Part shown: positions 3,707 to 55,497 of the stretch, piece after piece | How the letters are laid out: the number at the start of each line of letters is the position of its first letter | How positions within the stretch are numbered: position 1 is the first letter of the stretch | DNA from: a virus | Strand: one strand, 5' to 3' | IMG/VR virus record: IMGVR_UViG_3300025087_000048 | Location: 1 to 64,000 of that record | DNA length: 64,000 nt | Position numbers and translations under genes: made by a program | The notes under the pieces: model-generated | Database searches by the model: none | Told to the model about the DNA's origin: nothing | Seen by the model: only the letters and a program-made list of their open reading frames with translations

Positions 3707-4288
3707 TGCCTGAAACTCTTTCAATGTCCCAGTATTGTGAAGTGTCAAATCCCACATGCCATCCGATGTTGCCAAATGTTCAGAGACATGCGTATGGATC
3801 AACTCAGGTTCACAATGAGCTGGACGCACCGCCCGAATTAATATCCCGCCTTGTTCACGAATCACCGAGCATTCATTTTCGAATCGCACATCTGGAACAA
3901 CTACCCGTACCGATGCTTTGATCTGATGCCACTGTCGAGACCACCGGGTCACCCAGTATCCTGGATCGTCAGCCCGTCGAACATTCGTCCCCATTTCCTG
4001 TAATAAACATCGAACCAGAGGCGTCCGATGACGCCAGACAATTTCTTGTAAGGCTTGTTGCACAGTATCAGGTGGATCAGAAGGATAGATCCAACCAACA
4101 TCAAACAAATGAACAATCAATGTCCCTCGAAACTTCTTAATGACTTCCTGTTTCAACGCATCGGCAAATCCAAGGCGAGTATATCCATGATGTTCGACCA
4201 AGTAAGAGGCCACGACATCCTTCCCTGACCCAGAGGCCCCACCAATGCCAATCAACCGTGGGAGGCTATCATCCCCTTGGTTTATCAC
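3647..4288 (-). CDS. deoxynucleoside monophosphate kinase
   Basis: Transfers phosphate from ATP to dNMPs, supplying dNTP precursors for phage DNA synthesis; cytoplasmic. The P-loop GGASGSGKD is at residues 16-24 and is followed by the family pattern of FADALK, an EMGTNVRR segment and VPDVRFENE (the usual DVRF-NE region of phage dNMP kinases). About 213 residues fits the family. I chose GTG at 4288 because it has AGGAG nine bases upstream; a GTG at 4351 would add 21 residues with a weak binding site. It is the last gene of the minus-strand module. Confidence 0.85.
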   Translation of the reverse strand: MINQGDDSLPRLIGIGGASGSGKDVVASYLVEHHGYTRLGFADALKQEVIKKFRGTLIVHLFDVGWIYPSDPPDTVQQALQEIVWRHRTPLVRCLLQEMGTNVRRADDPGYWVTRWSRQWHQIKASVRVVVPDVRFENECSVIREQGGILIRAVRPAHCEPELIHTHVSEHLATSDGMWDLTLHNTGTLKEFQALIAVELLSKMKVSAGIPKE

Positions 4289-19033: not shown

Positions 19034-19441
19034 TCAACGCAGCAAACACAAATCGAGAAGGTGGCCAGACGGCACGGCTGGAGAAAACGTAAATTGTATC
19101 CCGGTAGTTGTCCTCGTCTGCTTCGTCATGACCATTCCGGTTGATACGTTTGGACTATACAAGATCATATACGACGCATCCGGCTCAATATTTGCAAAGG
19201 ACCACCAAATAGACGTCTGATTCCCGATCCCGAGTGACCCGTACGTAAAATTCTGAGATATGACACCACTGCTCGATAACCCATGAACCCCCAGCATTCC
19301 TTGAGCATTCGTGACAACTCGTGTAATAAACGTGTTAATAGATTGATCAAGCGCGCCTAAGTATTTAATAATATCTGCAATATCGGACCCTGGGCCCAGG
19401 CGTGGAGGCGTCTGGGGTCGAAGTGGAACGCCTGTAAGCAT
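19034..19441 (-). CDS. tail/head-associated hypothetical protein, 135 aa
   Basis: ATG at 19441 overlaps the stop of the stabilization-like protein (TAATG), after GAGAGGG. The N-terminus is Pro-rich, followed by one helix (IIKYLGALDQSINTFITRVV) and a beta-rich C-terminal half rich in Ser/Thr/Gly. This is typical of small tail proteins. No family recognised; position supports a tail role. Confidence 0.6.
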   Translation of the reverse strand: MLTGVPLRPQTPPRLGPGSDIADIIKYLGALDQSINTFITRVVTNAQGMLGVHGLSSSGVISQNFTYGSLGIGNQTSIWWSFANIEPDASYMILYSPNVSTGMVMTKQTRTTTGIQFTFSPAVPSGHLLDLCLLR

Positions 19442-20994
19442 TATCCCTCTCCACGAGGATACACATACAGCACTCCACCCCTGTAATGGTGGTTCCCCAT
19501 TGCAAACGGTATTCGATGTCGGACGCACACAAACCGGGCTTGCTGGTCATAGTATGTTGCACGCAATTTATCTGACGATGTCAAAAAAACAGACTGCGGA
19601 CTTGCTGTTGTTCCCTCATCCGAAGAGAGCGTATCGGATTTTACCAAGATAATCTCAGTTGTTAACCCGGTACCCTCCCCCTTAAAATATGATTCGATCG
19701 CGTCAATTCGCGTATTCTCGCCGGGTCCAGCAATCTGACGCCATGGCAAATCCCATATCGCCTCGTAACTATGTCCGTCATCCCCTCTCCCAGATCCAAA
19801 ATTATAGACTTGACCATTCACTCCGCCCGTGAGCACCGCCGGACGACCACGCATTAACATGCTATCCCACGTCGGATATGGCAGCTTATCCCACGGAGTT
19901 GGAAGATCATCCCATGTTAATACTGTAGTAATACGCCACGAAAACGACGCGCTTAATCTCAGTCCGTAATAATGCAACGTAGAAAATGCGCCAGGCACAT
20001 CGTCATACGGAAGTCGATAAGTAATCCCAACAGAAGGAGTCCCAGATGAACCAGACTCCCAAAACCACCAGATTTCACGATTTAACGGATCGTACACCCC
20101 ATGCGTTCGACCCCGGTTAAGCCAATACATATCCGATTGAATCAGACGTTTTATTGCCCCACCAATTGCAATACTTCTATCGCCGTCAAATTTATAAACA
20201 TCACCATCTTGTCCAATATAATAATGCACATTCTCAGCCGCAACAACACTAGCAGGAGACACTGGGCCTGATTGGTTCCCACGAAGTTCAAAAACAAATG
20301 GAAACAATCCACCAGTTCCAATTCCAACCCATTGCGACCAATCCTTGTACACTGCAAAAACTTGAGGGTTCAAGGATCTCACAGCCACAATGCCATCCTT
20401 TGCATCCGGCAGATTCACCTCACGAGTCGATGACCACGCTGTCGTATCTTGGAACCCACTAATCCACAGAGAAGAAGATTGTCGCGTTCCGCCAACAGTA
20501 ACATTTCCGAGCACCACACGTTCAAAAGCGACCGTTACATCCTTTGCAATTGGCGGAGACCCAGCAAGTGCAGCAAAATTACCTGTGCCGGTATACACTT
20601 GAGGAGCGTCTTTATCATTTACAGCAATAACTCGCGTCGAGTTCGCAAATGGAAATGCCACAAACCGTACTTGGTTATCAAGACCACCTGTTAGTGCAGA
20701 CCCCGTGATGTCTGACCACGATGTTGTATACAAGTGAAACCCGTTTGTCGTCCCAATAAGCAGTCGTTCTGTCTGTGTGTGATCCTCGTAAAACAATCCA
20801 CCCAGTACAGAATTCACAGATGGAACTGTTGATGAAACTCTGATTTGACCTGGACGAACAAGAATCTCACCATCACGACACAACACATTTTTTCCACCAG
20901 CAAGAAATCCATCTGGGATCATGTGCTTCGGAAGATCAGCTCGCATGCCTCGAGTTGGAGGATCAAGCGGAATACGAACACTCCCTCGTGGCAT
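19441..20994 (-). CDS. tail stabilization/tubular-B-like protein
   Basis: Five hundred and seventeen residues, all beta. It resembles the stabilization proteins of P22-like phages and T7 tail tubular protein B in size and style: an early GGKNVLCRDGEILVRPG segment (typical near the N-terminus of these proteins), then repeated propeller-like blades (YYIGQDGDVYKFDG; GVYDPLNREIWWFW). It would form the distal tail nozzle and close the portal channel after packaging. A tail-adaptor-like gene lies 1.6 kb upstream, supporting the assignment. Confidence 0.75.
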   Translation of the reverse strand: MPRGSVRIPLDPPTRGMRADLPKHMIPDGFLAGGKNVLCRDGEILVRPGQIRVSSTVPSVNSVLGGLFYEDHTQTERLLIGTTNGFHLYTTSWSDITGSALTGGLDNQVRFVAFPFANSTRVIAVNDKDAPQVYTGTGNFAALAGSPPIAKDVTVAFERVVLGNVTVGGTRQSSSLWISGFQDTTAWSSTREVNLPDAKDGIVAVRSLNPQVFAVYKDWSQWVGIGTGGLFPFVFELRGNQSGPVSPASVVAAENVHYYIGQDGDVYKFDGDRSIAIGGAIKRLIQSDMYWLNRGRTHGVYDPLNREIWWFWESGSSGTPSVGITYRLPYDDVPGAFSTLHYYGLRLSASFSWRITTVLTWDDLPTPWDKLPYPTWDSMLMRGRPAVLTGGVNGQVYNFGSGRGDDGHSYEAIWDLPWRQIAGPGENTRIDAIESYFKGEGTGLTTEIILVKSDTLSSDEGTTASPQSVFLTSSDKLRATYYDQQARFVCVRHRIPFAMGNHHYRGGVLYVYPRGEG

Positions 20995-20997
20995 CGC

Positions 20998-21930
20998 CTA
21001 CGACCGTGTTGCCTTAATCGTCAACGTCGCCAGAAGCGTGGTTGATACAGAATCAACGTTATAGCGAAGAATATCCCCTGCTGTAATTAACGTCGTCCAT
21101 CCGGTCAGCGTAGAATCCTGGGCCTTAATTGCGTTTGTCAACGTCGGCTTTGCTGATGCCGTGATCGACTGCCACGTCCCACCTGGAAAATTTGCATATG
21201 TTGTTTTGTAGATATCAACCACAAGACTTCCGGTTGGGTACCCAACAAGCGTAATTTGATTGATTGTCGCTGCAAAATCAATCGGAAGATCCAACTTGAT
21301 ACCCGTTGAAACGACACTCCCACCACCATCGAAAACAGCAACAATATCAGAAATTGAAAGGTTTGCCGAAAGACTCTGAACCAATGGGTCAGCCCAGACG
21401 AGATCCGCATTTGACCCAGCAGTCTGTAAGAATAACCCAGAAACTCCTGGGTCAATACCTGACCACCCAGCTGAATTCCGATGAAGAAGACTCCCACGAC
21501 GTTCACCCGGAACCGTTAATTTTGTCGCATCGAGCATTCCTGTTGGCGTTGTCACATCGACAGAATTTACTCCGGCTCGTAATTGCCCACCAAGACGGAA
21601 CATGTGTGACGGCATGACAACTCCAGTTGCCATAAATTGCATAATAGTATTGCTTGCTACCTGCAATTCCATCGAAGTATACAACGCGGACATCTTGAAA
21701 ATACCAGAGGGACCACCGAGCACATATGTCGGAAGATACGCCGGGCTCTGCGACACCGTCACAATCCCAGCCGCAGTGATCGCAAATGCCGCCGCAGTCA
21801 CCGCTGTATTATCCGGAACCCCAAACACATCAACAATGTACTGTTTCAAAGAGCGAAATTCGTTATCTCCAAGAGAAGGGGCATCCGACCCTGCTGGGGT
21901 TGCCGCATTTACCGTCTGAGGGAGTGAAAT
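20998..21930 (-). CDS. tail-fibre-like protein, start codon unclear (possible ATT)
   Basis: The part from the TTG at 21849 encodes 283 residues, but the frame stays open upstream. It reads ATPAGSDAPSLGDNEFRSLK, a motif very often found at the N-terminus of phage tail fibres, so the true start must be further upstream. No ATG, GTG or TTG occurs there; the best candidate is ATT at 21930, eight bases after AGGAG. Just upstream the frame runs into the HNH gene, whose insertion may have removed the normal start. The rest is beta-rich (ITLVGYPTGSLVVDIY). Confidence 0.65.
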   Translation of the reverse strand: MSLPQTVNAATPAGSDAPSLGDNEFRSLKQYIVDVFGVPDNTAVTAAAFAITAAGIVTVSQSPAYLPTYVLGGPSGIFKMSALYTSMELQVASNTIMQFMATGVVMPSHMFRLGGQLRAGVNSVDVTTPTGMLDATKLTVPGERRGSLLHRNSAGWSGIDPGVSGLFLQTAGSNADLVWADPLVQSLSANLSISDIVAVFDGGGSVVSTGIKLDLPIDFAATINQITLVGYPTGSLVVDIYKTTYANFPGGTWQSITASAKPTLTNAIKAQDSTLTGWTTLITAGDILRYNVDSVSTTLLATLTIKATRS

Positions 21931-21941
21931 CGCCCTATCTC

Positions 21942-22541
21942 CTACGTTCCCGCAATTTCCATTGCGGTTTTATTCGCCTTTATCCGATTACATTGAGCAC
22001 AAGCTAACGCAAGATTAGACCCCGATGATCCTCCTCCACGACTTCTTGGAATCATATGATCAAGCACAAATGTTAAAATATCAAGAGTTTGATGACAGTA
22101 GTAACAACACCCTTCTTGAAACCACCACAATCGTCTAATTGTGTAGCCAATTTCTCCACTGACATGCCCTTTTCTATACCAAGCAGTCGCAGCACGTAAT
22201 CTTCTGCCAGCACGAACCCACTCTGGATGTTTCGCCAGCCAGCCAGCAGTACGTCGAATCTCTCTACCTTTATTCGTATAATACCGTACATGCTCTTTCA
22301 TACGAAGTTCTTCTCTATGTGTATCCGCGTAGCGTTTCCACGACAAAGCTAAGCGACCTGACGTACTCCTATTACGTCTCCAACGAGTCACATCAAGCGG
22401 ATGTTTCTTTTCCCATTCCCGGGTATATTGTGCTTGACACAAACGACAATATGTTCGCAATTGTGCCACCCTACCCAAACGAAATCCAAATTCAAGTTCT
22501 GACTTCTCAACCTTACAACGTGGGCATATTTTCATTAACAT
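21942..22541 (-). CDS. free-standing HNH endonuclease
   Basis: One hundred and ninety-nine residues. An N-terminal zinc knuckle (CPRC, then CRLC) is followed by a basic helical middle. The C-terminal HNH region has CYYC, then VLDHMIPRSRGG and ALACAQCNRIK, giving the His, Asn and metal-binding Cys of the family. It would nick or cut DNA as a homing enzyme. It lies between two tail genes and its stop directly abuts the frame of the tail-fibre gene. No intron-like sequence flanks it, so it is free-standing. Confidence 0.9.
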   Translation of the reverse strand: MLMKICPRCKVEKSELEFGFRLGRVAQLRTYCRLCQAQYTREWEKKHPLDVTRWRRNRSTSGRLALSWKRYADTHREELRMKEHVRYYTNKGREIRRTAGWLAKHPEWVRAGRRLRAATAWYRKGHVSGEIGYTIRRLWWFQEGCCYYCHQTLDILTFVLDHMIPRSRGGGSSGSNLALACAQCNRIKANKTAMEIAGT

Positions 22542-22555
22542 ATTAATACCCCACC

Positions 22556-23455
22556 TTACAGATTAATACTATCTCTTGACAAATAGAAATCATCTCCACG
22601 CTCACCACTTCTCACGGAATCCCGTACATGCTGCACCACACTAAACCGTGACAAATCATCGGCCTTTGCCCCATCTAACGCTTCTACGTACCTCTGATGA
22701 AACCGATCTGCCAGTGCAAGCCACGCCGCATCCCCTGTTTTCCCATGAAGAAAGAACGCTGCCGATTCTCCAGACTTCCACACCAGTACGTCAGACCGAT
22801 ACAACGGAATAGACGCATCAGCTGACAACTCATTATTCATCAGATATTCAATACGAATCGCAGTGGCTGCGGAAGGCACTGGCCAAAACTCGATCTGATA
22901 CACTCCGCTACTCGTCTGTGCATCCAGCCCACGAATACTGAAGACATCAGGCTGAGACGCTGTCGTACTTCGGTACGGGTCAATACGATCAATATCCGTA
23001 AGCGACCACTCAGAGAGCTTTGTGTCTAACGTCACATTCAGATGTCGCCCAAAATTAGATGGCAGAACATAAATATGCTGAAAGATTGTATACGTGGACC
23101 CAGCCGCAGCATCCGAAGGAAGTGCCGCTTCTAATTCAATCCCAAGCGCACTAGTAAACGATGCAATTTGATGATAAAATTGATTCGATCCGATCCGCAT
23201 CCACCGCCCAACCATCGCGGAAGTAAACGTCGTTCCAACCCCAGTCACCGTGGTCCCTGACGTGGACACGCTGCCCGTAGAGTACGGAGCAACCAGATTG
23301 ACAATCGTCTCTTTCTTCCGCCGTGACCACGCGTTATCCTCCAAAATCGTGACATGCTCAGCCTGAACAATGGCAAGAATATCCCCATCGGAGATCATTG
23401 AGTTTGACGCTACCAGGTTTTTCACCTGAGATACTATCGTTACCCTCGTCGCCAT
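22556..23455 (-). CDS. tail adaptor / head-tail connector-like protein
   Basis: Two hundred and ninety-nine residues, GGGAGG ribosome binding site. N-terminal helix-rich segment (NLVASNSMISDGDILAIVQ), then beta strands around residues 55-110 (STGSVSTSGTTVTGVGTTF, a pattern typical of phage head-tail connector and adaptor proteins) and a helical C-terminus. Location between tail genes suggests the ring joining portal and tail nozzle (P22 gp4 or T7 gp11-like role). Assignment by style and position, not by a diagnostic motif. Confidence 0.6.
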   Translation of the reverse strand: MATRVTIVSQVKNLVASNSMISDGDILAIVQAEHVTILEDNAWSRRKKETIVNLVAPYSTGSVSTSGTTVTGVGTTFTSAMVGRWMRIGSNQFYHQIASFTSALGIELEAALPSDAAAGSTYTIFQHIYVLPSNFGRHLNVTLDTKLSEWSLTDIDRIDPYRSTTASQPDVFSIRGLDAQTSSGVYQIEFWPVPSAATAIRIEYLMNNELSADASIPLYRSDVLVWKSGESAAFFLHGKTGDAAWLALADRFHQRYVEALDGAKADDLSRFSVVQHVRDSVRSGERGDDFYLSRDSINL

Positions 23456-25138: not shown

Positions 25139-25339
25139 CTATCTACGCCTCGGCCTAAAAATAGGAATAAAAGAATCAGCAGCACTCACTCCACCACCAC
25201 CAGCCATCACATACATAAAATCAGTTTGCGCCCAATCCTCAGTTCCCACAGTCCCATCAGGCAAAGGCCACAACCCCCGCCATGGACAGGCAGGAGCAAT
25301 TGCCGATGCACGCTTCTCCCGCGTATCTAAATCTGCCAC
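25139..25339 (-). CDS. small tail-module protein, 66 aa
   Basis: GTG start overlapping the upstream TAG. The layout (MADLDTREKRASAI, then PWRGLWPLPDGTVG, then a Gly/Ala stretch) resembles a small protein often seen next to tail genes in siphophages and podophages. Function unknown. Its composition is intermediate between the GC-rich island to the right and the backbone to the left. Confidence 0.6.
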   Translation of the reverse strand: MADLDTREKRASAIAPACPWRGLWPLPDGTVGTEDWAQTDFMYVMAGGGGVSAADSFIPIFRPRRR

Positions 25340-26013
25340 TACGGACCTGCCCCCACCTCACCCTTGGTAAACGTCGTGGCATTATCCGACACAGTTGCTT
25401 TCTGATCCACAGTCAAGGCATCATCGCCAAATAAACTGTACTGCGTCGCGGTCTGCGTGCTCGTGTTGCGCCACGCCTTGTAGAGATAGGCAAGCATCTT
25501 GCGGAGCGTCTGCGTAGCCGCCGGAGCTTCCTGACCCACTTCAGCATAGGTGTCCACGTTCAGCGCATCCACTACTTCGCTTTGCACTTCCGCGTCCCAG
25601 CTTGCATTCCACGGGATAGCCGTCAATCCGGCGCCGAGCGCACCGATCACGGCGGTGTCCACGAGGATCGCCTGCACCACTTCGTACAGCGTCGAGGCCG
25701 CCGCCCGCACAACGAATGAGCCCACGAATCCCGCCGGGTTGACGCTGCTGATCGTGAGCGTGCAGAAGACCGCGTACTCGCCCTCGGCGTAGCCCGTCGT
25801 GTCGATGGCGATCTCATGGAGGCCGTCCGAGTAGTTCGCATGCGTGAGGAGCGTGGGCGTCCCGCTCGCGGTGGGTGCGGCACCCGATGCGGCACCCGCC
25901 AGTCGCACGTCGTAGAGGGGCGTGGCGCCGTCTCCCGCACTCCCAGCCGTCGTGTTCGCGGCGAACCAGAAGTAGACCGTCCCTCCGACCGCGACTTCCT
26001 TGGGGGCGCTCAT
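25339..26013 (-). CDS. GC-rich tail/fibre-type structural protein
   Basis: Two hundred and twenty-four residues, GAGGAGCC site before ATG. The first 105 residues are an Ig/jelly-roll-like beta domain (GGTVYFWFAANTTAGSAG; YAVFCTLTISSVNP). Residues 130-175 hold WDAEVQSEVVDALNVDTYAE, a phrase found in tail proteins of several GC-rich phages. The end is a short helical Thr/Asp-rich tail. Likely a fibre or baseplate component. Part of the GC-rich island. Confidence 0.65.
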   Translation of the reverse strand: MSAPKEVAVGGTVYFWFAANTTAGSAGDGATPLYDVRLAGAASGAAPTASGTPTLLTHANYSDGLHEIAIDTTGYAEGEYAVFCTLTISSVNPAGFVGSFVVRAAASTLYEVVQAILVDTAVIGALGAGLTAIPWNASWDAEVQSEVVDALNVDTYAEVGQEAPAATQTLRKMLAYLYKAWRNTSTQTATQYSLFGDDALTVDQKATVSDNATTFTKGEVGAGP

Positions 26014-27443
26014 AGGGTGGCTCCTCGGAACTCAGGCCGAGCACTCGACAACTCATTGCTGTAGGCGCCGCCGGGGACAAGAGATTGTCGAGGACTTGAA
26101 TTCGCACCACTGATACTCAATTTCGGGCAGGCATACACGGTGTACGACGCCTTCGCCAGCCCCACTCGGCACCGGTAGTACCCCTTCTCCTGCGGCGTCT
26201 GCGTCGTCACGAGCTTCTGCCTATTCGGATTGGTCAAGCCGGTCGTCGTCCACGTCTCGGTGCTCGCCGCCTGATCCGCTGGCGTGGCGAGGATGTCCGC
26301 CGCCCTGTCATTGGCAAAGAGGCTCAGCGGGAAGCCGCTCGTCCCGAGGTACTCGGTTTCCAACCACACCTCGTCGTCCTGGAGATTCGTCACGCTGTCG
26401 TGGAGGATCTCGCAGGTCACGGTCTGGCTACTCCCAACCGCCTCGTTCCAGATCACCATCTCCGGGCCACACAGCGGCGCGTAGAACTTGCTGTTGGCGC
26501 TGCTGACGTGCTTGTGGCTGAGGCCGGTAGTTCCGTCGGATGCTCCACTAGTGCGGATCAGCGTGGTCTCAGAATAGGAGTCACCTTCGTACTGGTGGCG
26601 CTGCATCCGGTAATTCGTGTCGCCGGAGTCGCAGTTGTCCAGAAGGATTGAACCGCCTGGGCCGGGCACGGCTCCACTGACCAGCGAGACAGAGGCGCCA
26701 AGTTTACATTGCAAGAACGAGATGAGTGCGGTCATCTGCATAGCGGCGGGATTTACCAGATTCTTGCCAGACCCTGACGCACTTAAATCGACGCCCACGA
26801 CTCGAACAATTCCGCCGAGATCGCTACCGAAGAGCGACGTAGGAATTGACCCCGTGCCATCCAGGGACCCACCCCGCCAAGAGAAGCTGACGCGAGTGGC
26901 CGAAATCACCTGACCAACTGCGGCAAACTTGACTGTACAGTTAATCCAGTTAATCGTGTGAAGGGTGAGTGTCCCTGCCGCTGTGCCATAGAGAAGAAGC
27001 TTTGCCCCGCTTGCGGTTGTGGCGACCACGAACTTGCAGGAGTCGTATGTCTGTACCTCGTTCGCGGCACTATTCCCGGTCAAGACGAGATCGGTGGTGT
27101 TTATAGTGCCCTCTGTGAACGTGATCCCGTAGCAAATCAGAGAGCCCTTGATGGTCATGCTGAAAGCACCCGTCACCGTCACCGTCGCCGTCGTCGCCAG
27201 CGCGGTTGGGGGCTCCGCTGCGTCGTTGCCACAAAGGATTTCGACGGGTGCTGCCGCCGTCCCTGCGGAGGTCAACGTCATTGCTGACGCTTGCGTTTCT
27301 GCGTGGGCCTGGCTGACCCAGATCCGCTCCCCTGCGGCCGCGACCGCAAGCGCGCCAGCGAGTGTCGCTTTCGCAAGTGCCCATGTCAAACCAGAATCGG
27401 CGTCGCTTCCATCCGTTGATCGGACGTAGTATGGGCCGGCCAT
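26010..27443 (-). CDS. beta-helix-type tail spike candidate
   Basis: Four hundred and seventy-seven residues. YYVRSTDGSDADSGLTWALA at the start is the usual opening of right-handed beta-helix (pectate-lyase-like) proteins. Many short beta segments with Asn/Cys turns follow (ICYGITFTEGTINTTDL; INWINCTVKFAAVG). These proteins often bind or degrade surface polysaccharides as tail spikes. No catalytic residues can be assigned. It overlaps the next gene by ATGA and lies in the GC-rich island. Confidence 0.7.
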   Translation of the reverse strand: MAGPYYVRSTDGSDADSGLTWALAKATLAGALAVAAAGERIWVSQAHAETQASAMTLTSAGTAAAPVEILCGNDAAEPPTALATTATVTVTGAFSMTIKGSLICYGITFTEGTINTTDLVLTGNSAANEVQTYDSCKFVVATTASGAKLLLYGTAAGTLTLHTINWINCTVKFAAVGQVISATRVSFSWRGGSLDGTGSIPTSLFGSDLGGIVRVVGVDLSASGSGKNLVNPAAMQMTALISFLQCKLGASVSLVSGAVPGPGGSILLDNCDSGDTNYRMQRHQYEGDSYSETTLIRTSGASDGTTGLSHKHVSSANSKFYAPLCGPEMVIWNEAVGSSQTVTCEILHDSVTNLQDDEVWLETEYLGTSGFPLSLFANDRAADILATPADQAASTETWTTTGLTNPNRQKLVTTQTPQEKGYYRCRVGLAKASYTVYACPKLSISGANSSPRQSLVPGGAYSNELSSARPEFRGATL

Positions 27444-32322: not shown

Positions 32323-33371
32323 ATTTCTCTCCCATTCCAATATGTAAAATTGTCAACATCGTTAATTGGAACTGACGCCGTCGTTCTCCATCCGGTCAAC
32401 AACTCTGATAACTCATCCATTGACCACGGATTCAATGCTCGAGGGGACCCACCCGCTTGCATCTCTGCCTTCCGACGTTCCACGTACGCCAATCCATCGG
32501 GCCAACTCCAACGTCCCTCCAACCGAATTGGCTTTGACGATCCAAAAGGCAGCGCAGGATCAATCATATGCGGATCGAGATAGCACACCGATACCTCAGG
32601 AGCCCACCATAATTCAACATGTGCCGCTAACAAACGATATTGTAAGTCAATATCCAGCGGACCCCGCCCCCGTTCCAACCGTTCATCTAACCCGTTGAGC
32701 TCCCACATCACATCACGACACACCGAATCATTCTTAATATGGAGCCACCCATCTCCAAGACCAGACCCACCCGTTCGCCTCAACTCTGTCATGCGAAGAT
32801 CCTGATGGCGTACTGGCAATCCCATCAAATGCGGCAGCCACGCAGATTGAAATCTCCCAGCCTTCATTGGGTACATCTCATCCAAAATCTCCCCGCGTGC
32901 CACCGGGCTCTCTTCCGTACATTCGAATCCTGCTTCCCACTTTCGCACCACCGCCTCAAAATCATACGGCTGCTTGAGAACAAGTTCAGGAATCGGGACA
33001 AACCGGTAGCTCCCCGCCACGTACCGCCGCTGCCCGTCCAACGCCTTCAGGTGCCCCTCAATCCATCCTGGCGGGGTATACATCCAATCAGCCAAGAAGA
33101 TCACCACACGCCCTCGAGCCAACGCAATTGCAGTATTCCAAGCTGACGCGAAAGACACCCATTTCCCATTCCGCCGATGTTCAGGAACATGAAGCAACGG
33201 CACATCATAACCCCACGCCATCTCCTGTACTTCTTTATGTCTCTTCTCGTACCGACGGTCAACCAAAATAACTTCAAAATCTTTGAACGTCTGATCTCTC
33301 ATCCCAGCCAAAAGAACATCAATTCCGCCCGGCCTGAACACAGTAGACAATACGGACACTTCAGGCGTCAT
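32301..33371 (-). CDS. family 2-type glycosyltransferase
   Basis: About 356 residues from the ATG at 33371, which overlaps the HNH stop (ATGA). N-terminal GT-A features: VSVLSTVFRPGGIDVLLAGM, DFEVILVD, and ASAWNTAIALARGRVVIFLADW, the last containing the DxD-like acidic pair region. It would transfer a sugar from a nucleotide donor, probably to a glycan or protein. Similar in N-terminal layout to the gene at 37257-38273, so the two may be paralogues. Confidence 0.75.
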   Translation of the reverse strand: MTPEVSVLSTVFRPGGIDVLLAGMRDQTFKDFEVILVDRRYEKRHKEVQEMAWGYDVPLLHVPEHRRNGKWVSFASAWNTAIALARGRVVIFLADWMYTPPGWIEGHLKALDGQRRYVAGSYRFVPIPELVLKQPYDFEAVVRKWEAGFECTEESPVARGEILDEMYPMKAGRFQSAWLPHLMGLPVRHQDLRMTELRRTGGSGLGDGWLHIKNDSVCRDVMWELNGLDERLERGRGPLDIDLQYRLLAAHVELWWAPEVSVCYLDPHMIDPALPFGSSKPIRLEGRWSWPDGLAYVERRKAEMQAGGSPRALNPWSMDELSELLTGWRTTASVPINDVDNFTYWNGREIWPDSEP

Positions 33372-33877
33372 ACAGACACCAAATACGACCAAGATCGTCC
33401 CCTACGAACGTCACGAATAGCAGAATCAGACACTCCAAAACGACGACCTAACACTGGTGCAGACTCATTACTCATTCTTATTTCCAAAACACGCGCTTCT
33501 GTCAATTTAGTCCAACCCAACCGCTCACCTCTTCGCCACGAATGGTCAATTAACCCCAAAGCATTTGCATGTTTCATATTTTCGGAGCGAGTAACATACT
33601 CCAAGTTAGAAACAAAATTGTTAGTTTTAACCCCATCTAAATGGTTAACCTCATACCCATCCGGCCTTGGTCCAATAAACGCTTCTGCAACAACTCGATG
33701 AACAAGCATCAAATTTGTCACTCCTGGACGTCTAAGGCGAATACATAAGTACCCACCTGGGTGTTTCCACACTCTCATCATATGTACACGCCCTTTAATT
33801 CTGAACACATCCCCCAAATTAGATACCAAATATTGCTGCTCGTAACCAACAACAGGACGCCAATCAAGTTCAAGCAT
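33368..33877 (-). CDS. NUMOD4/HNH homing endonuclease
   Basis: One hundred and sixty-nine residues. N-terminal NUMOD4-like module (WRPVVGYEQQYLVSNLGDVF), then an HNH core with MLVHRVVAEAFIGP, EVNHLDGVKTNN and NLEYVTRSENMKH (His and Asn positions of HNH_3 enzymes). The C-terminal part (VLEIRMSNESAPVLGRRFGV) is a DNA-binding helix-turn-helix like NUMOD1. It is wedged between two genes of the sugar cassette, overlapping both by a few bases, so it inserted without breaking the operon. Confidence 0.9.
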   Translation of the reverse strand: MLELDWRPVVGYEQQYLVSNLGDVFRIKGRVHMMRVWKHPGGYLCIRLRRPGVTNLMLVHRVVAEAFIGPRPDGYEVNHLDGVKTNNFVSNLEYVTRSENMKHANALGLIDHSWRRGERLGWTKLTEARVLEIRMSNESAPVLGRRFGVSDSAIRDVRRGRSWSYLVSV

Positions 33878-34433
33878 GCCTAACCCCGGTCACATGCATT
33901 TCCCATTTATTATACCAACCGCCATGCACAATATTAGAAAAACCAGCAAATTCTAACTCAGTTTTAAACGAATCAAAATTATACAACCATTTATGATATC
34001 CAAATCCATTTTCATTATTAGGCCCATGAAACAAACATGAAAGCCACCCTTCAAACAATCCATCCTCTCGTAACCGTTCAAGAATAAAATCACCATCCCC
34101 TATCATCACAATAATTTGCCCACCAGTATCAAGAATACGATAACATTCACGAAGAATTTTTCGAGCTGCATCCCGTGATAAATGCTGTAAAGAATGAATT
34201 GCCTTTACACACTGTGCATGCCCATCATGAAACGGAAGATCTTCCTGTTCCAAATCGCACACAATATCCACATTTGGCCCAGCAGATATATCAACATTCG
34301 GATGATAGACATCCTCTGCCGGACCCCCACCAATCTCCACCCACCGAGAGATCCCACACTGCTCGCACAGAGGTCCATACCCCCCTGATGGCGGAGGAGG
34401 CCCATGGGACTGCCACCGCGTAATATCCACCAT
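33870..34433 (-). CDS. SAM-dependent methyltransferase
   Basis: One hundred and eighty-seven residues; ATG at 34433 overlaps the previous stop (TGATG). WVEIGGGPAE is the SAM-binding motif I, VDIVCDLEQEDLPFHDG motif II and post-motif region, and HSLQHLSRDAARKILRECY motif IV and following helix. A short CEQC precedes. Next to a radical SAM enzyme and glycosyltransferases, it may O- or N-methylate a sugar or a peptide, but the substrate is unknown. Confidence 0.75.
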   Translation of the reverse strand: MVDITRWQSHGPPPPSGGYGPLCEQCGISRWVEIGGGPAEDVYHPNVDISAGPNVDIVCDLEQEDLPFHDGHAQCVKAIHSLQHLSRDAARKILRECYRILDTGGQIIVMIGDGDFILERLREDGLFEGWLSCLFHGPNNENGFGYHKWLYNFDSFKTELEFAGFSNIVHGGWYNKWEMHVTGVRHA

Positions 34434-37264
34434 CAGACCACCTCGACAGGTTTCTGAAGCAACCGCTTCCTGGCGTACCACACGGCCTGCTTTGCAAACT
34501 CCTCCAGATTTCCGCCAAACTCATCAGCCGTTCTCACTAACACACGATCCCAAGCAAGCCGTAACAACACATCCACCAAATCCGGCCATTGAAGCCGAAG
34601 TAATAAATTCATCTCTTCGTAAAATCTGGAACTCTTCTGTGAAGCAATATTCAAATATGTAAATTCCTCAGTTGGCCAGATAATATTCCCATACCGAAGA
34701 TCAACCTCACCCCACTGGCCTCCGTCCAACCCGCGTTTCACAATCGCGATCGTTCGCCTATATTCCTCAGCCAATAATGTCGCGGGTCGTCGAGATGCCA
34801 CCTGCAAAAGCCACTCATAAAACTCCCGGTATGACACACCTTGAACATCATGCAAATACATCGCAACTTCCCGGAGTAACCCAAACCCATGAAATGTCTG
34901 AACTGCCCACGAGAACATATACGCCTGCACCCAATCCGCTTCCGGCATCGTTGCGGTCTCAATACATAGGAGACAGGTTTCTTGAATTCCATCCTGATTC
35001 GGAGTCGAGTGCTGTTGCAACAGCGGAGACTGAATCACACGCATTCCATGCTTCTTCTGATACTCGAGATCGCCCATCTCTGCATTCGGAAGAACTGCCA
35101 ACAAATAAATATTCAGTCCCTCATGTTGCCCAGCCTTTAATAGCTGCTCAATCCCCCTGGTAAACGAGTCGTATGTCTCCCCTGGCAAACCAAGAATTAA
35201 CTCCGTGTATGTAGGAATTCCCTCCTGACGATATGTCCCCAACAATGATTTGAAGTTCTCGATCTTAATATTACTCCGCTTGATCTCCTGTAACGTATGT
35301 GCGTCAAGGCTCTGAAAACTCAATGTGGTCCCCTTACTCATTCCTGCCTGGTGGACCACACTAGAGATATCAAGAACTTTCTGATTACTGTTCTTTGCGT
35401 ATGCCGCCCGAAATTGCCGTGGATAGCCATATTTTTCTTTCGCAGCAACCATTTCCTTTGTCAATTCAAGATCACGTGGAAGCAATCCAAAATTCGCATC
35501 ACAATTATAAAGTAGTTCAATTTCGTGCTGACCCATCCACTCAAATTCACGAACAAGACGTTCATCATCAAACGCTCGTATCTTCGTAAGGACCGCAGAA
35601 CCCCAATCACAATTGTGGCTTTCCAACCCGAAAACACTATAAATTGGAGTATCTTCTACTTCTAAATTAAAAACATACCCAGAAAAATCGGCATCACTTA
35701 CGGACGTCACATACGCCCACAAGTTTATTGGTAACTTTTCCGGAAACCGCCCAGCAAATTCTATCCGATAGGATTCATGCACATTAACATCTCGCCCGCA
35801 AATTCTAGGAACAAGCAATTTACGTTTAGAAACACCAGCACAAATACCAAGCAGACTCAGCAAAACCTGAAGTTGAGTAGCAAGAGTCAACGACACAGTC
35901 GAAGCAATACAGCGACCTTGAGAATTCTTCTTATCAATACTGAAACACCCATCTCCATCGAAATAGCCGCGAATAAACGCATGTATCAATTCCGACGAAA
36001 CACTAAACCACGCGTACGGAATCTTTTTCCTTAACGATCCAGAACCGAACAACTTAGAAAACAAACGAGCATACACCGAACTACAAACATAAATTTGCAT
36101 GCCTGTATCAGTTTCAGATACGATCGGTTCGACACCTAAGCACAACCTAACCAGTTGGCATGTTTCAGTAATTAAATCAGTCTCGTGTTTCCCAAACGTC
36201 CATCCTACAACACCAGAATTTGGCCGAGTTTTTGAAAAAGAAACATGTCCTTCCGCAACATACAACCCGCACAAACGCATAAACAAGTTATTCATAATTA
36301 CATAACGTGGCACTTTCACTTTGCCACGCTTGAATTTAACAAACATACCATCTACACACAACGCATCTAAATAGTTACATAGATCTAAAATCTCCACGCC
36401 CGCTCTCTGTGTATCCGGCACAGATACACGAATACGATCTCCTACAGTAATTTCACCAGCAGAAATCCATCCGCGCTGCGTCAACCATTCATGATTAGGC
36501 GTACACTGTATCAAAGGACGCCCTACAACTTTCACTCGTTTAATCACCCCGGAGTACCGCCGCTCATACCTATGCAGAATCTGCTTCAATCCAGTATGCG
36601 TCCAAACTTGTTCGCCTACTTTATCCAAAACAACTTCAGAAATAGGCACAGACCCAGCGTCTGTCATAATAACTGCATCACCTGTCAAACAAAAACTGCA
36701 AGAATAGACACATCCCCTATGCGTCTCTTGACTAGCATTATGATTATAGTCCGCTTCAAGCATCATGTCGAACACACCGGTCACATACGGAGATGGCAAA
36801 ATAGAAAGATCAGCAATTCGTGAACCAGATCGGTGAACCAAGGTTTCTGCCTTCAACCCACTACAACGAACCAGTAAAATCTCAGAAAACGCGATTTCTC
36901 CCTCATGATGAACAACAACGTCCACATAATCCGGGATATCACGACGTAATGCCACTGACTTTGGAACATGCGGACCACCAAACACGATCAAACAGTCCGG
37001 ATACGATTCACGAACTTTCTGTGCAAGAACCTTGTTAAACTCCCAGTTCCAAATATAACATGAAAACCCGACAACATCCGGATTTTCCATTCGTTCCACA
37101 ATCGCATCAGAACGCTCTCGAAGATAAATCAACTCTTTGAAACAGTATTCTTTGTTTACCCAATCAAGTGACTGACAGTATGCTTGAATCAATCCGACGG
37201 AATACGGAAGAAACACGTTATCCCCGAACCGATTATTCACTTGAACCAAATACACGTTACGCAT
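34433..37264 (-). CDS. B12-binding-type radical SAM enzyme, interrupted by an intein
   Basis: The 943-residue precursor would splice to 583 residues. N-terminal cobalamin-type domain (about residues 1-150, with IVFGGPHVPKS), then a radical SAM domain whose cluster motif reads RGCVYSCSF and is completed only after splicing: Cys185, Cys189 and the residue after the intein. Following parts show FSCYIWNWEF and ELILGLPGETYDSF, typical of the family. The gene sits in the sugar cassette between a glycosyltransferase and a methyltransferase. It could do cobalamin-dependent methylation or a radical rearrangement on a sugar or peptide; substrate unknown. ATG at 37264 is chosen because MRNVYLVQVNN is the normal domain start. 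Confidence 0.85.
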   Translation of the reverse strand: MRNVYLVQVNNRFGDNVFLPYSVGLIQAYCQSLDWVNKEYCFKELIYLRERSDAIVERMENPDVVGFSCYIWNWEFNKVLAQKVRESYPDCLIVFGGPHVPKSVALRRDIPDYVDVVVHHEGEIAFSEILLVRCSGLKAETLVHRSGSRIADLSILPSPYVTGVFDMMLEADYNHNASQETHRGCVYSCSFCLTGDAVIMTDAGSVPISEVVLDKVGEQVWTHTGLKQILHRYERRYSGVIKRVKVVGRPLIQCTPNHEWLTQRGWISAGEITVGDRIRVSVPDTQRAGVEILDLCNYLDALCVDGMFVKFKRGKVKVPRYVIMNNLFMRLCGLYVAEGHVSFSKTRPNSGVVGWTFGKHETDLITETCQLVRLCLGVEPIVSETDTGMQIYVCSSVYARLFSKLFGSGSLRKKIPYAWFSVSSELIHAFIRGYFDGDGCFSIDKKNSQGRCIASTVSLTLATQLQVLLSLLGICAGVSKRKLLVPRICGRDVNVHESYRIEFAGRFPEKLPINLWAYVTSVSDADFSGYVFNLEVEDTPIYSVFGLESHNCDWGSAVLTKIRAFDDERLVREFEWMGQHEIELLYNCDANFGLLPRDLELTKEMVAAKEKYGYPRQFRAAYAKNSNQKVLDISSVVHQAGMSKGTTLSFQSLDAHTLQEIKRSNIKIENFKSLLGTYRQEGIPTYTELILGLPGETYDSFTRGIEQLLKAGQHEGLNIYLLAVLPNAEMGDLEYQKKHGMRVIQSPLLQQHSTPNQDGIQETCLLCIETATMPEADWVQAYMFSWAVQTFHGFGLLREVAMYLHDVQGVSYREFYEWLLQVASRRPATLLAEEYRRTIAIVKRGLDGGQWGEVDLRYGNIIWPTEEFTYLNIASQKSSRFYEEMNLLLRLQWPDLVDVLLRLAWDRVLVRTADEFGGNLEEFAKQAVWYARKRLLQKPVEVV
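35612..36691 (-). mobile_element. LAGLIDADG intein in radical SAM gene, 360 aa
   Basis: Begins with Cys (CLTGDAVIMT) and ends SHN before Cys+1. Block B shows CTPNHEWL (T-x2-H). Endonuclease motifs LCGLYVAEGHV and FIRGYFDGDGCFS are the two LAGLIDADG helices, each with the acidic residue. The C-terminal block reads VFNLEVEDTPIYSVFGLESHN in its last part (His-Asn end). The intein sits exactly at the third Cys of the radical SAM cluster motif, so the protein has no functional iron-sulfur site until splicing. Confidence 0.92.
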
Positions 37265-38273
37265 ACCACGCCCACTCTGGTTTTTGCCCCACAAGATGCC
37301 CTGCATTGCCGCTCACAATCCTGGACGCATCATGCTCACACGCCAAAAACCTCGGGAGCGACGCTTCAGGTGTACTTCTCCACACTGAATGCGGGAAGTA
37401 ATGCCGAGGATTCACAATCTCAACAGTTGCCACCGGATCAAGAAGCATCCATGCAGCTCCAGAACGACTCAGACGAAGACCCATATCCGAATCATCATAA
37501 CAATGACCGATCCACGACTCGTCAAACCCGTTCACTTCACGTCCCCGCTCAGCCCCCATCCCTTCATTTTTCGCATGAAACGCAGTCGGAGGAACATCTC
37601 CACTCACAAGTCCATTCAATTTTGGATCAGCACGGAAAAAATACGGATCTTCATCCAAAGTCAGAACTTGCTCAGGATACTTAATCGGCGGATCAAAGAT
37701 CGTGTACATCCATTTATCGTAAACCCCGTCCTGTATCGCGTCAGCAAACTCTTGTCCAGCCTGTGCTGAATATTGGTAGGTTGCTCCCTGCACTGGTTTC
37801 ACCACACAGTCCACTGTGGCTGCTCCGTATACCCAATGTGCCCGAATTGGTGCATACGCTGGAAGATCATATGCCAGAGTCGGAGGATACCGGTATCGGT
37901 GCGCTCCCATCCCGGCCTTCTTCTTCTCGGTGTACTCCCAGACCCCCCAGTGTTCCCGTAAGCATGCTTCTGGGAAAAACGAGTAATCCACCCCCCACAC
38001 AATCAGTTCCCCGGATGCCTTCGCAATCGCCGTATTCCTAGCGGCCGGAACTGAATCCAATGGGAATATCCGATCCTTCGGGGGTGTATGAACCACCCGA
38101 ATACTCGCATCAAAAAAGGCATCCGCCACTTGTTCGGCCCGGCGATGGTACAATGCATCAACGAGTACCACCTCGAAATCATCAAAGATCTGACGAGTCA
38201 ACCCAGCTAAAAGAACATCAAGACCGCCTGGCCGCACAGTCACAATACACAAACTTAACCTGGGTGCCCCCAT
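37257..38273 (-). CDS. family 2-type glycosyltransferase
   Basis: Three hundred and thirty-eight residues, start overlapping the upstream stop (TAATG). SLCIVTVRPGGLDVLLAGL and DFEVVLVDAL form the GT-A nucleotide fold; SVPAARNTAIAKASGELIVW holds the typical ARN-x-G pattern, followed by an acidic VDYSFF in the DxD place. Later DSDMGLRLSRSGAAW fits the usual acceptor-side Asp. It shares the PGGxDVLLAG phrase with the 33371 gene, suggesting paralogy. Donor and acceptor unknown. Confidence 0.75.
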   Translation of the reverse strand: MGAPRLSLCIVTVRPGGLDVLLAGLTRQIFDDFEVVLVDALYHRRAEQVADAFFDASIRVVHTPPKDRIFPLDSVPAARNTAIAKASGELIVWGVDYSFFPEACLREHWGVWEYTEKKKAGMGAHRYRYPPTLAYDLPAYAPIRAHWVYGAATVDCVVKPVQGATYQYSAQAGQEFADAIQDGVYDKWMYTIFDPPIKYPEQVLTLDEDPYFFRADPKLNGLVSGDVPPTAFHAKNEGMGAERGREVNGFDESWIGHCYDDSDMGLRLSRSGAAWMLLDPVATVEIVNPRHYFPHSVWRSTPEASLPRFLACEHDASRIVSGNAGHLVGQKPEWAWYA

Positions 38274-52441: not shown

Positions 52442-55315
52442 TCATTCCCAAGGTTCATCTTCTCGCCCACCAACCATCCTACGGAATGTTCTATCACATT
52501 CCCAAGGTTCAGGCTCCCGCTTCTCTGCCCCACCAGATACGGTATCGCGTGACACTAACTTCTGAAGCCCATAATATTTCTCAAAACATTCATCATCTGA
52601 TGTCAAAAGAGCAATCATCCACGCAATCGCTCGATCATCATGATGTCCAGCAACAGCCCCCCATTCGTTCGGACCCTTCTGCACGAACATTTCCAATTCA
52701 CGCAGGAGTGATTCACTGGCGATGTGGACCCGGCCATTCACCATCTCATGAGATGCAAACCCAACGAGCCACGGCTTCGATTTAGAATTCGTCTCCCAGC
52801 CCGTTTTTCGAGAATAGCGAGGCACCACCTCATCCCTATACCTCCAGACGTAATTATTTGAATAGCCCATCTTACTTAGTTGTTGATTTGTCCCACCGCC
52901 AATCCCATTTGTTTCAACTGCAATCTGTGCAGTGTTATAATATTTCCCTAACCAGTACAACACGTTTGCGAGTTCAAACGGATCAACAGCCCGTGATGTC
53001 CACTCAGCCACCTGCTTATTCGATCCCCGCTGCAACACGCACGCGACCGACGAATCCAAATCCTCTTCCATCGAATCATCTCGACCTTGGCCCATCGCCA
53101 CATCTATGCCAATGTCATATGCCTTCCCCTGTTCTGGCTCATCCCAGATCCACAGTTTACCTTGTGGCGCATCAAGAATCCGTGGACCCGAATGCACCTC
53201 AGCCATTCGCATCGGGGGACGCACTCCATGCCGAAGCTCCCGCAACGATTTCGCAGGAAATACCTGTGCCCCAGGGGTCACCCACGCATCTTCAACCGTA
53301 TTATGCGTAAGAATTCCATTGGTATCATGAAGATGGTCAGGAGCAACACGAAAATCGTACACATCCACACACCCGGCCGATGTAACAGACTTTACTCGAT
53401 CGCTTAACACATGACGTAAACGAACCTTTCCAGAAGGATATGCACGACGCCCATTTTGTTTACGTGCCGAAACAAATCCGATCTTCTCGTGAAATAAAGT
53501 TGCTTCAGACGCCGATAAATAAAGCATCGTTTTATACCCAAGAGACCCATCAATATACGGACGGCTCTGTCTTTCTCGTCGCAACCGCCCCTTAATTCCA
53601 AACGCAAGCAATAATAATTGAATATCACGACAGAACTGCTCCCCCTTTGAACAAAAAACAACTTTCGCCTGACGATTTCCAGCGTAACCGTCACTTTCAA
53701 ACAAAGCGGATAAAAATCTGCGAACACAGGGCTGCGGACTCCGAAAGATAGCCTCCGGAACACGAACCACTCGATGCCACAAACCCTTCCCAGAATACTG
53801 TTCGGCGATTTCAAATTGAGATAACAGGTGTATCCAATCGCGTGTAAACGATCGTACGCCAATAGCCCCCTGCAACCGATGTCGTCGTGTAATTGATGGT
53901 CGAGTACCCCGCGACGTTAAATAACCAGATGCAACAATACCAACCACACGTTCTATATCTTCAACCACATCCATATCTCGACTATCAGAAGCAATCTCGA
54001 CACAGTGCCCATCAAAACTTCCATCTCCCAGATAATACCCAAGAAATGCAGATAATTCTTCTGTTACCAACACGCTACTCTGTACACCAGGAGAAGAAAT
54101 CCAACGATGAACAAACATAGATTCAGACAAGCGAGGGGGTTCTAACGTAAGAACCATATCTTCCAACAGATCTTTTGCTTCAATAAACGCATCACCAACA
54201 ACAAATGGATGATTGGGAGTACATTGAACACGATACCCATCTTTAGTTTCCACAAGAACAGTCTCATGTACCCCTTGTGGCAACCACTCCTTTACTACAC
54301 GAGACCCAGAAAGTTCTGAAACTCCTTGTGCTTGATCAATCCGAATCAAGCCAAGATTCGTTCCGACTCGAGTATCTCCGGACACACACAAAGGAAAACT
54401 TTGCCGAAACAGATCCCAATCGTTCCCCATTTCACCGAGCTTTTCCCGCATCCATTTGATATGTCCAGGATTCAACCCGAATTCCGCTACGATATGGCGC
54501 TCATTCGCTGAAAACTCGATGGACTCACCCACGTTCAATGGCATACAATATTCAGGCTGAAGGAACCATGGGACAAAGGTAAATTCAAACGCGGTATCTC
54601 CACGCATGGATGCTTCACAAAAATCTCGATACCACGTCCCTGCCATTTCAGCAGAAGACTCCATGATAATAATCGTCCCAGGAACCCGATGGACTGCCGG
54701 GATGACCCCGTCAAGCACAAACGCCGGATCAGGGAACCGGGCACATTCTGACAAATGAGCAACCTGCCAATTCGCACCTATAGCTATGTTTTTCTTGTGG
54801 GCAGACTCCACCACAATTCTCGATCGTAACCCTGGATCATGTTTACGCGTTGCCTGGGAGGGATTGGCAAACACCAGTTCCCGTTTGGTAATATACCGAC
54901 CCACTGGGCGAATATCATCATCCAGATGGTCATAAAATGTCCGTGAAATCTCGAAGAGCGTCCGTGCCCGTTCAGCTTGATCAGCCAGCACCAACGCGTT
55001 CACATGAGGCCAAAGCATTGTCCGCCATGCAACCAACGATTCGGCCAACGTGCTGGCCCCAACCTGGCGAGCTTTCAACCAAACACATCGCGCAAACCCT
55101 CGAGCTTCAAATTGGCGCTCAATAGATTCAAGAAGTGGGATTTGGCACGGCCAGAAGTTAAACGGGTTATCCCCAATTCTTAACTGCTCCGATGCGAACG
55201 CCCGGAAATCCCGACGGTACCGGACAATCTTCTGTGCCGATTGCTGTGCTTCGCCAAGCACGACCCCCGTATCAACCGTCCGAGTCAAGGTAACCGGTAT
55301 CTCCGCTTCCGACAT
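52442..55315 (-). CDS. terL: terminase large subunit, interrupted by an intein
   Basis: Packages phage DNA with ATP and cuts the concatemer. The precursor has 957 residues and splices to about 594. Walker A WLKARQVGAST is at residues 79-89 and Walker B GTIIIMESS at 213-221. The C-terminal nuclease domain begins YDIGIDVAMG and has AVETNGIGGG and AGHHDDRAIAWM, giving the catalytic Asp set. The intein lies between the ATPase and nuclease domains, after QSFPL, rejoining it to TVEDAWVTPG. ATG 55315 is used; an upstream in-frame ATG at 55327 is possible. Overlaps the 70-residue zinc-ribbon gene. Confidence 0.92.
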   Translation of the reverse strand: MSEAEIPVTLTRTVDTGVVLGEAQQSAQKIVRYRRDFRAFASEQLRIGDNPFNFWPCQIPLLESIERQFEARGFARCVWLKARQVGASTLAESLVAWRTMLWPHVNALVLADQAERARTLFEISRTFYDHLDDDIRPVGRYITKRELVFANPSQATRKHDPGLRSRIVVESAHKKNIAIGANWQVAHLSECARFPDPAFVLDGVIPAVHRVPGTIIIMESSAEMAGTWYRDFCEASMRGDTAFEFTFVPWFLQPEYCMPLNVGESIEFSANERHIVAEFGLNPGHIKWMREKLGEMGNDWDLFRQSFPLCVSGDTRVGTNLGLIRIDQAQGVSELSGSRVVKEWLPQGVHETVLVETKDGYRVQCTPNHPFVVGDAFIEAKDLLEDMVLTLEPPRLSESMFVHRWISSPGVQSSVLVTEELSAFLGYYLGDGSFDGHCVEIASDSRDMDVVEDIERVVGIVASGYLTSRGTRPSITRRHRLQGAIGVRSFTRDWIHLLSQFEIAEQYSGKGLWHRVVRVPEAIFRSPQPCVRRFLSALFESDGYAGNRQAKVVFCSKGEQFCRDIQLLLLAFGIKGRLRRERQSRPYIDGSLGYKTMLYLSASEATLFHEKIGFVSARKQNGRRAYPSGKVRLRHVLSDRVKSVTSAGCVDVYDFRVAPDHLHDTNGILTHNTVEDAWVTPGAQVFPAKSLRELRHGVRPPMRMAEVHSGPRILDAPQGKLWIWDEPEQGKAYDIGIDVAMGQGRDDSMEEDLDSSVACVLQRGSNKQVAEWTSRAVDPFELANVLYWLGKYYNTAQIAVETNGIGGGTNQQLSKMGYSNNYVWRYRDEVVPRYSRKTGWETNSKSKPWLVGFASHEMVNGRVHIASESLLRELEMFVQKGPNEWGAVAGHHDDRAIAWMIALLTSDDECFEKYYGLQKLVSRDTVSGGAEKREPEPWECDRTFRRMVGGREDEPWE
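53300..54388 (-). mobile_element. LAGLIDADG intein in terminase gene, 363 aa
   Basis: Begins with Cys in CVSGDTRVGT and ends GILTHN before Thr+1. Block B reads VQCTPNHPFVV (T-x2-H). The two LAGLIDADG helices are FLGYYLGDGSF and RRFLSALFESDGYAG. The block before the end contains VDVYDFRVAPDHLHDTNG. All splice residues (Cys1, His-Asn, Thr+1) are present, so it should be active. The DNA of this insert is relatively AT-rich. Confidence 0.93.
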
Positions 55316-55497
55316 TGCCCAGAACAAAACCTTGTATATTGCCCTGTCGCATTCGCTGCAATATCATGTCCGCATACCTCACACACACGCCCGGACCCAG
55401 CGAATTTATACCCGCGCGGCACGTCCCTCCCAGGCACACGTTCAACCCGTTCACGTCCCGTCAAACCCAACTGCTGTCGTCTCCGCGCTTCACCCAT
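55285..55497 (-). CDS. zinc-ribbon DNA-binding-like protein, 70 aa
   Basis: ATG with GAGGTCG before it; overlaps the previous gene by 8 bases and TerL by about 31. The basic start MGEARRRQQLGLTGRER is followed by CEVCG, an aromatic stretch and FCSGQCRKRRYRLP, a four-Cys zinc site with a basic tail. It could bind DNA near the packaging machinery. Role inferred. Confidence 0.65.
   Translation of the reverse strand: MGEARRRQQLGLTGRERVERVPGRDVPRGYKFAGSGRVCEVCGHDIAANATGQYTRFCSGQCRKRRYRLP

Follow-up and report, generated by a model that had tools for sequence, protein, structure and literature searches.

The tail-fibre/collar-like virion gene of the viral record IMGVR_UViG_3300025087_000048 lies next to an HNH endonuclease gene and has no conventional start codon at the head of its frame, which raises the question of whether it has lost its start and where its translation begins. 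In the window (the whole stretch of DNA analysed, 64,000 nucleotides), the minus-strand ORF is open from 21969, after an upstream stop codon at 21972-21970, to a stop at 20998. The first-pass annotation had found no standard start codon before TTG 21849, and inspection of the frame agrees: ATG, GTG, TTG and CTG are all absent between the upstream stop and this TTG, which is the first ATG, GTG or TTG in the frame, and the only near-cognate triplets in that interval are AGG 21936, ATT 21930 and ACG 21915. Upstream of TTG 21849 the frame encodes ISLPQTVNAATPAGSDAPSLGDNEFRS, including a conserved TPAGSD..GD..R..K region. The C-terminal part of the protein matches phrog_35197 (E 3.6e-27) and phrog_10330, labelled 'virion structural protein'; a single-sequence AlphaFold model of the protein was unusable (mean pLDDT 31.9).

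The position of the start was assessed against IMGVR_UViG_3300045118_000170 (L006), a relative without the HNH gene that was found in IMG/VR by the tail N-terminus. Its gene order is adaptor, small genes, fibre gene, one further ORF and then a nozzle-like gene encoding 517 aa, as does its homologue in the window; because its adaptor and nozzle proteins match those of the window (30% and 29% identical, respectively), synteny is confirmed. Three small genes occupy the adaptor-to-fibre interval of L006 where the window has the HNH gene; one of them looks lipoprotein-like by eye. The L006 fibre gene starts with GTG at 4004 and its protein, which begins MALPNSVNAATPAGSD... / MALPNSVNAATPAGSDSP..., aligns without gaps to ISLPQTVNAATPAGSD... 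in the window, the GTG falling on ATT 21930. The 28 codons from the start have a BLOSUM62 score of 89, and when the 27 codons after the start were shuffled 20,000 times, no shuffle scored as well; the typical fibre N-terminus that had been proposed upstream of TTG 21849 is thus real homology. Similarity to L006 sets in exactly at ATT 21930, the 13 codons upstream of it in the same register giving a score of -16 and no similarity, and TTG 21849, 27 codons into the conserved region, corresponds to a TTC (Phe) codon in L006. On these observations, the start with the best support is ATT 21930, and TTG 21849 lies inside the coding sequence. We consider it likely that the tail gene is intact and begins at AUU 21930, its ancestral start position, rather than having lost its start. 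Support for this reading is computational throughout, with one informative relative for the start position (L006) plus a looser LUZ24-type match.

The looser match comes from LUZ24-type Pseudomonas phages, whose tail-collar gene encodes the N-terminus NPTGSDLKS.GDDH.RLIK and starts shortly before the GSD motif. In these podoviruses (LUZ24 gp57, NV1 gp53, Rembedalsseter CDS0073), as in the window, GSD..S.GD...R.IK lies near the start and the collar/fibre gene is directly upstream of a nozzle-type gene, whereas their genes start with ATG and AAAGGAGG and have different C-terminal domains. A relative of the nozzle-like protein in Paracoccus phage KLEP18-1 is labelled 'noozle' (nozzle).

The sequence before ATT 21930 (..CGTAGGAG-ATAGGGCG-ATT) contains a Shine-Dalgarno (SD) motif, AGGAG, whose initial AG also forms the end of the HNH stop codon TAG (21944-21942), 11 nt from the ATT. 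Among AGG 21936, ATT 21930 and ACG 21915, the ATT has the best anti-SD pairing; a pairing this strong also precedes 7.3% of random positions, which makes the site modest, supportive and non-decisive evidence. The choice of ATT 21930 as the start candidate made in the first-pass annotation is upheld both by this motif and by the aligned GTG of L006. That annotation had left several routes open, and an unusual start, coupling to the HNH gene, or both, is the likely one (Table 1).

Table 1. Coordinates of the tail gene start and its surroundings in the window
Feature	Position	Strand	Details
Nozzle-like virion protein gene, downstream of tail gene	19441..20994	-	517 aa; phrog_3287 E 3.1e-30
Tail-fibre/collar-like virion gene, read from ATT	20998..21930	-	310 codons + stop; ISLPQTVNAATPAGSDAPSLGDNEFRSLK...; ungapped alignment with L006 gene
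TTG, first conventional start codon in tail frame	21847..21849	-	Judged an internal Leu codon
Proposed AUU start codon	21928..21930	-	Aligns with GTG 4004 of L006; predicted unpaired, probability 0.95
Shine-Dalgarno AGGAG	21939..21943	-	8-nt spacer to ATT; anti-SD duplex -7.3 kcal/mol
Free-standing HNH endonuclease gene	21942..22541	-	199 aa; CxxC...CxxC N-terminus, C-terminal HNH domain; Pfam HNH E 5.2e-11
Predicted hairpin sequestering HNH Shine-Dalgarno (GGTGGGG, 22555-22549) with HNH coding sequence	22507..22566	-	z = -3.0
Head-tail adaptor (SU10-adaptor-like) gene, upstream of HNH gene	22556..23455	-	Pfam SU10_adaptor E 8.3e-5, below curated cut-off

The HNH domain sits in its own ORF between conserved genes and is missing from the same interval of L006. 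The Pfam families HNH, HNH_5 and HNH_4 all score above cut-off, and the protein matches the endonuclease VII PHROG phrog_1035 (E 4.6e-26); we infer a homing-type endonuclease with homing activity. Because no intron family was detected and only 25 nt of non-coding sequence surround the ORF (14 nt upstream, 11 nt downstream), the gene is regarded as free-standing. Its start codon is ATG 22541, preceded at 7 nt by GGTGGGG, and a hairpin is predicted to hide this motif (SD unpaired probability 0.14); when 24 gene starts across the window are compared, its z is the lowest, and two to three of 200 shuffles were as stable, a moderate test of a single prediction. Hairpins hiding a ribosome binding site are known for T4 I-TevI, T4 segB and Aeh1 mobE (PMC2988022), of which the intron-borne I-TevI is comparable for hairpin control only. 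The window gene resembles T4-type free-standing homing endonucleases (segB, mobE) in its compact insertion beside a virion or essential gene and in having its SD in a hairpin, but differs in being an HNH protein with a CxxC N-terminus, classed as homing-type by its sequence.

The main rival to an AUU start is a shared base error: the gene would naturally begin with ATG (or GTG) at 21930, and the ATT would reflect a minority allele or a mistake in assembly or consensus calling; we judge this unlikely. One base separates ATG from ATT, and an error at 21928 common to both contigs that carry the gene would suffice. The tail gene stretch is 100% identical in the second contig, IMGVR_UViG_3300002223_000008, where ATT is also read; this is the only other contig with the gene, and it may not be independent, as it differs from the window by 1 base in 8.9 kb. 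The out-of-frame 5' end of a radical-SAM gene on the same contig (23544-24953) could likewise mean sequence errors, or gene decay. However, assembling a 94-kb contig requires a depth at which few substitution errors would be expected, which counts against an error. IMG/VR was searched with the tail N-terminus, the whole tail protein, the HNH protein and, as an exact pattern, 17 bases of the start region. The near-identical contig was the sole match, apart from L006 with the N-terminus; neither a near relative whose tail gene has a different start codon nor a close endonuclease-free allele was found in this collection. No relative was found in a GTDB genome scan, and nozzle or adaptor relatives (L010-L023, L035-L038) had no fibre gene with the N-terminal motif in the stretches examined.

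In a further alternative, the tail gene lost its original start codon and ribosome binding site when the HNH gene inserted, and ATT is an accidental substitute; this concerns the origin of the arrangement and is compatible with AUU initiation. The HNH gene is directly upstream and the AGGAG overlaps its stop codon, but the start position is the same as in the HNH-free L006, and the HNH SD is predicted to pair with the coding sequence of its own gene; we give this scenario little credence. The same pairing suggests that the ribosome binding site in front of HNH is that gene's own and not one acquired from its neighbour, contrary to the earlier proposal that the HNH gene carries the site expected for the tail gene. 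Comparison with a relative lacking the HNH gene, the check suggested at the outset, favours an unusual start and speaks against a start displaced by homing, since L006 has GTG at the ATT position. HNH insertion did not move the tail start, and could at most have altered the codon at the same position.

It is very unlikely that the tail gene starts at TTG 21849 and that the conserved stretch upstream is untranslated. No conventional start precedes this TTG in the frame and gene callers would pick it, but the 27 residues upstream are conserved with the L006 protein, whose translation from GTG includes them; L006 has a Phe codon in place of the TTG; and no SD lies at a usable distance, the only nearby GGAG being spaced by about 19 nt. 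We attach even less probability to an HNH-tail fusion produced by -1 ribosomal frameshifting: the tail frame is indeed -1 relative to HNH, with an overlap at 21969-21942, but the overlap contains no X XXY YYZ slippery heptamer, on which ground a frameshift supplying the tail start was rejected, and L006 has a free-standing fibre protein starting at the ATT position. Least credible is an HNH gene lying within an intron whose splicing gives the tail frame an upstream ATG, for although HNH genes occur in introns of phage structural genes such as the ICP1 tape measure gene (PMC10448857), no Rfam intron family matched locally at E up to 5 or, with gathering scores as the threshold, anywhere in the window, the flanking non-coding sequence leaves too little room for an intron core beyond the ORF, and the L006 start already coincides with ATT; a group I or II intron around the HNH ORF was rejected accordingly.

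The window holds other mobile or irregular elements. The large terminase ORF (52442-55327, minus strand) probably contains an intein with a LAGLIDADG domain (Pfam Intein_splicing E 4.2e-6, below cut-off; LAGLIDADG_3 E 4.6e-15). An intein with a LAGLIDADG domain also appears to be present in a B12-binding/radical-SAM ORF (34433-37306, minus strand), a kind of gene in which phage inteins are not usually found. Another free-standing HNH endonuclease gene (33368-33877, minus strand) encodes NUMOD4 and HNH_3 domains and, added to the other elements in the window, brings the endonuclease elements of this phage to at least four. The other B12-binding radical-SAM gene (24991-23544, minus strand) has a broken 5' end: ATG 24991 gives MNVCLINPPSPFL, followed by TGA 24952, and the remainder (LLDDRVFPPLG...) is in the -1 frame. 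The context of this stop is CTT TGA C, the same as that of the prfB +1 site; a +1 shift would not reach the frame of the gene. A second, diverged start (MNICLINPPSPFLL...) lies just upstream (25135-25001, minus strand). Two ORFs at 25339-27443 (minus strand) have 60-64% GC and a GC3 of 0.71-0.77, compared with about 48% GC in neighbouring genes, and were probably acquired recently.

For the AUU start favoured here, the AGGAG overlapping the HNH stop codon would position the 30S subunit at AUU 21930, and the codon would be used either directly or through reinitiation by ribosomes that have just finished translating the HNH gene 11 nt upstream. The AUU would be read by initiator tRNA-fMet, making fMet the first residue of the tail protein, but inefficiently and under IF3 control, and for this reason the level of tail protein is probably reduced. 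An inefficient start codon is unexpected in a virion protein gene, which counts against the AUU reading. The HNH gene would be an ordinary free-standing homing-type endonuclease gene that fills a slot of variable content between adaptor and fibre genes.

Starts at AUU are rare, and few have been documented. Reportedly, Hecht et al. made measurements across all 64 codons. The infC gene of Escherichia coli has an AUU start under IF3 control (PMC5472188), and in Staphylococcus aureus ribosome profiling identified an AUU start with a strong SD in cvfC1, with about 10% of the reporter expression of AUG (PMC13009471); as cited in the latter paper, a 'second chromosomal example' dates from 2002. Like these bacterial genes, the tail gene has a normally spaced SD in front of an AUU at which the protein would actually begin; unlike them, it is a virion gene of a phage, follows a gene for a homing-type endonuclease and is known from sequence alone. 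A limited literature search returned no phage virion gene with an AUU start. Gene callers that accept only ATG, GTG and TTG misplace or miss such starts, and in this case would trim 27 conserved residues from the tail protein; the comparison of start positions with relatives provides a concrete case of a corrected annotation. The case also points to a link, open to testing, between a gene for a homing endonuclease and translation of the adjacent gene. Selection may have kept the AUU, which follows the HNH gene and has a reinitiation site in that gene's stop codon, as a means of tying the level of a virion protein to HNH translation and host IF3, a suggestion that we regard as unlikely; if it is true, homing-endonuclease expression and virion assembly would be linked in this phage.
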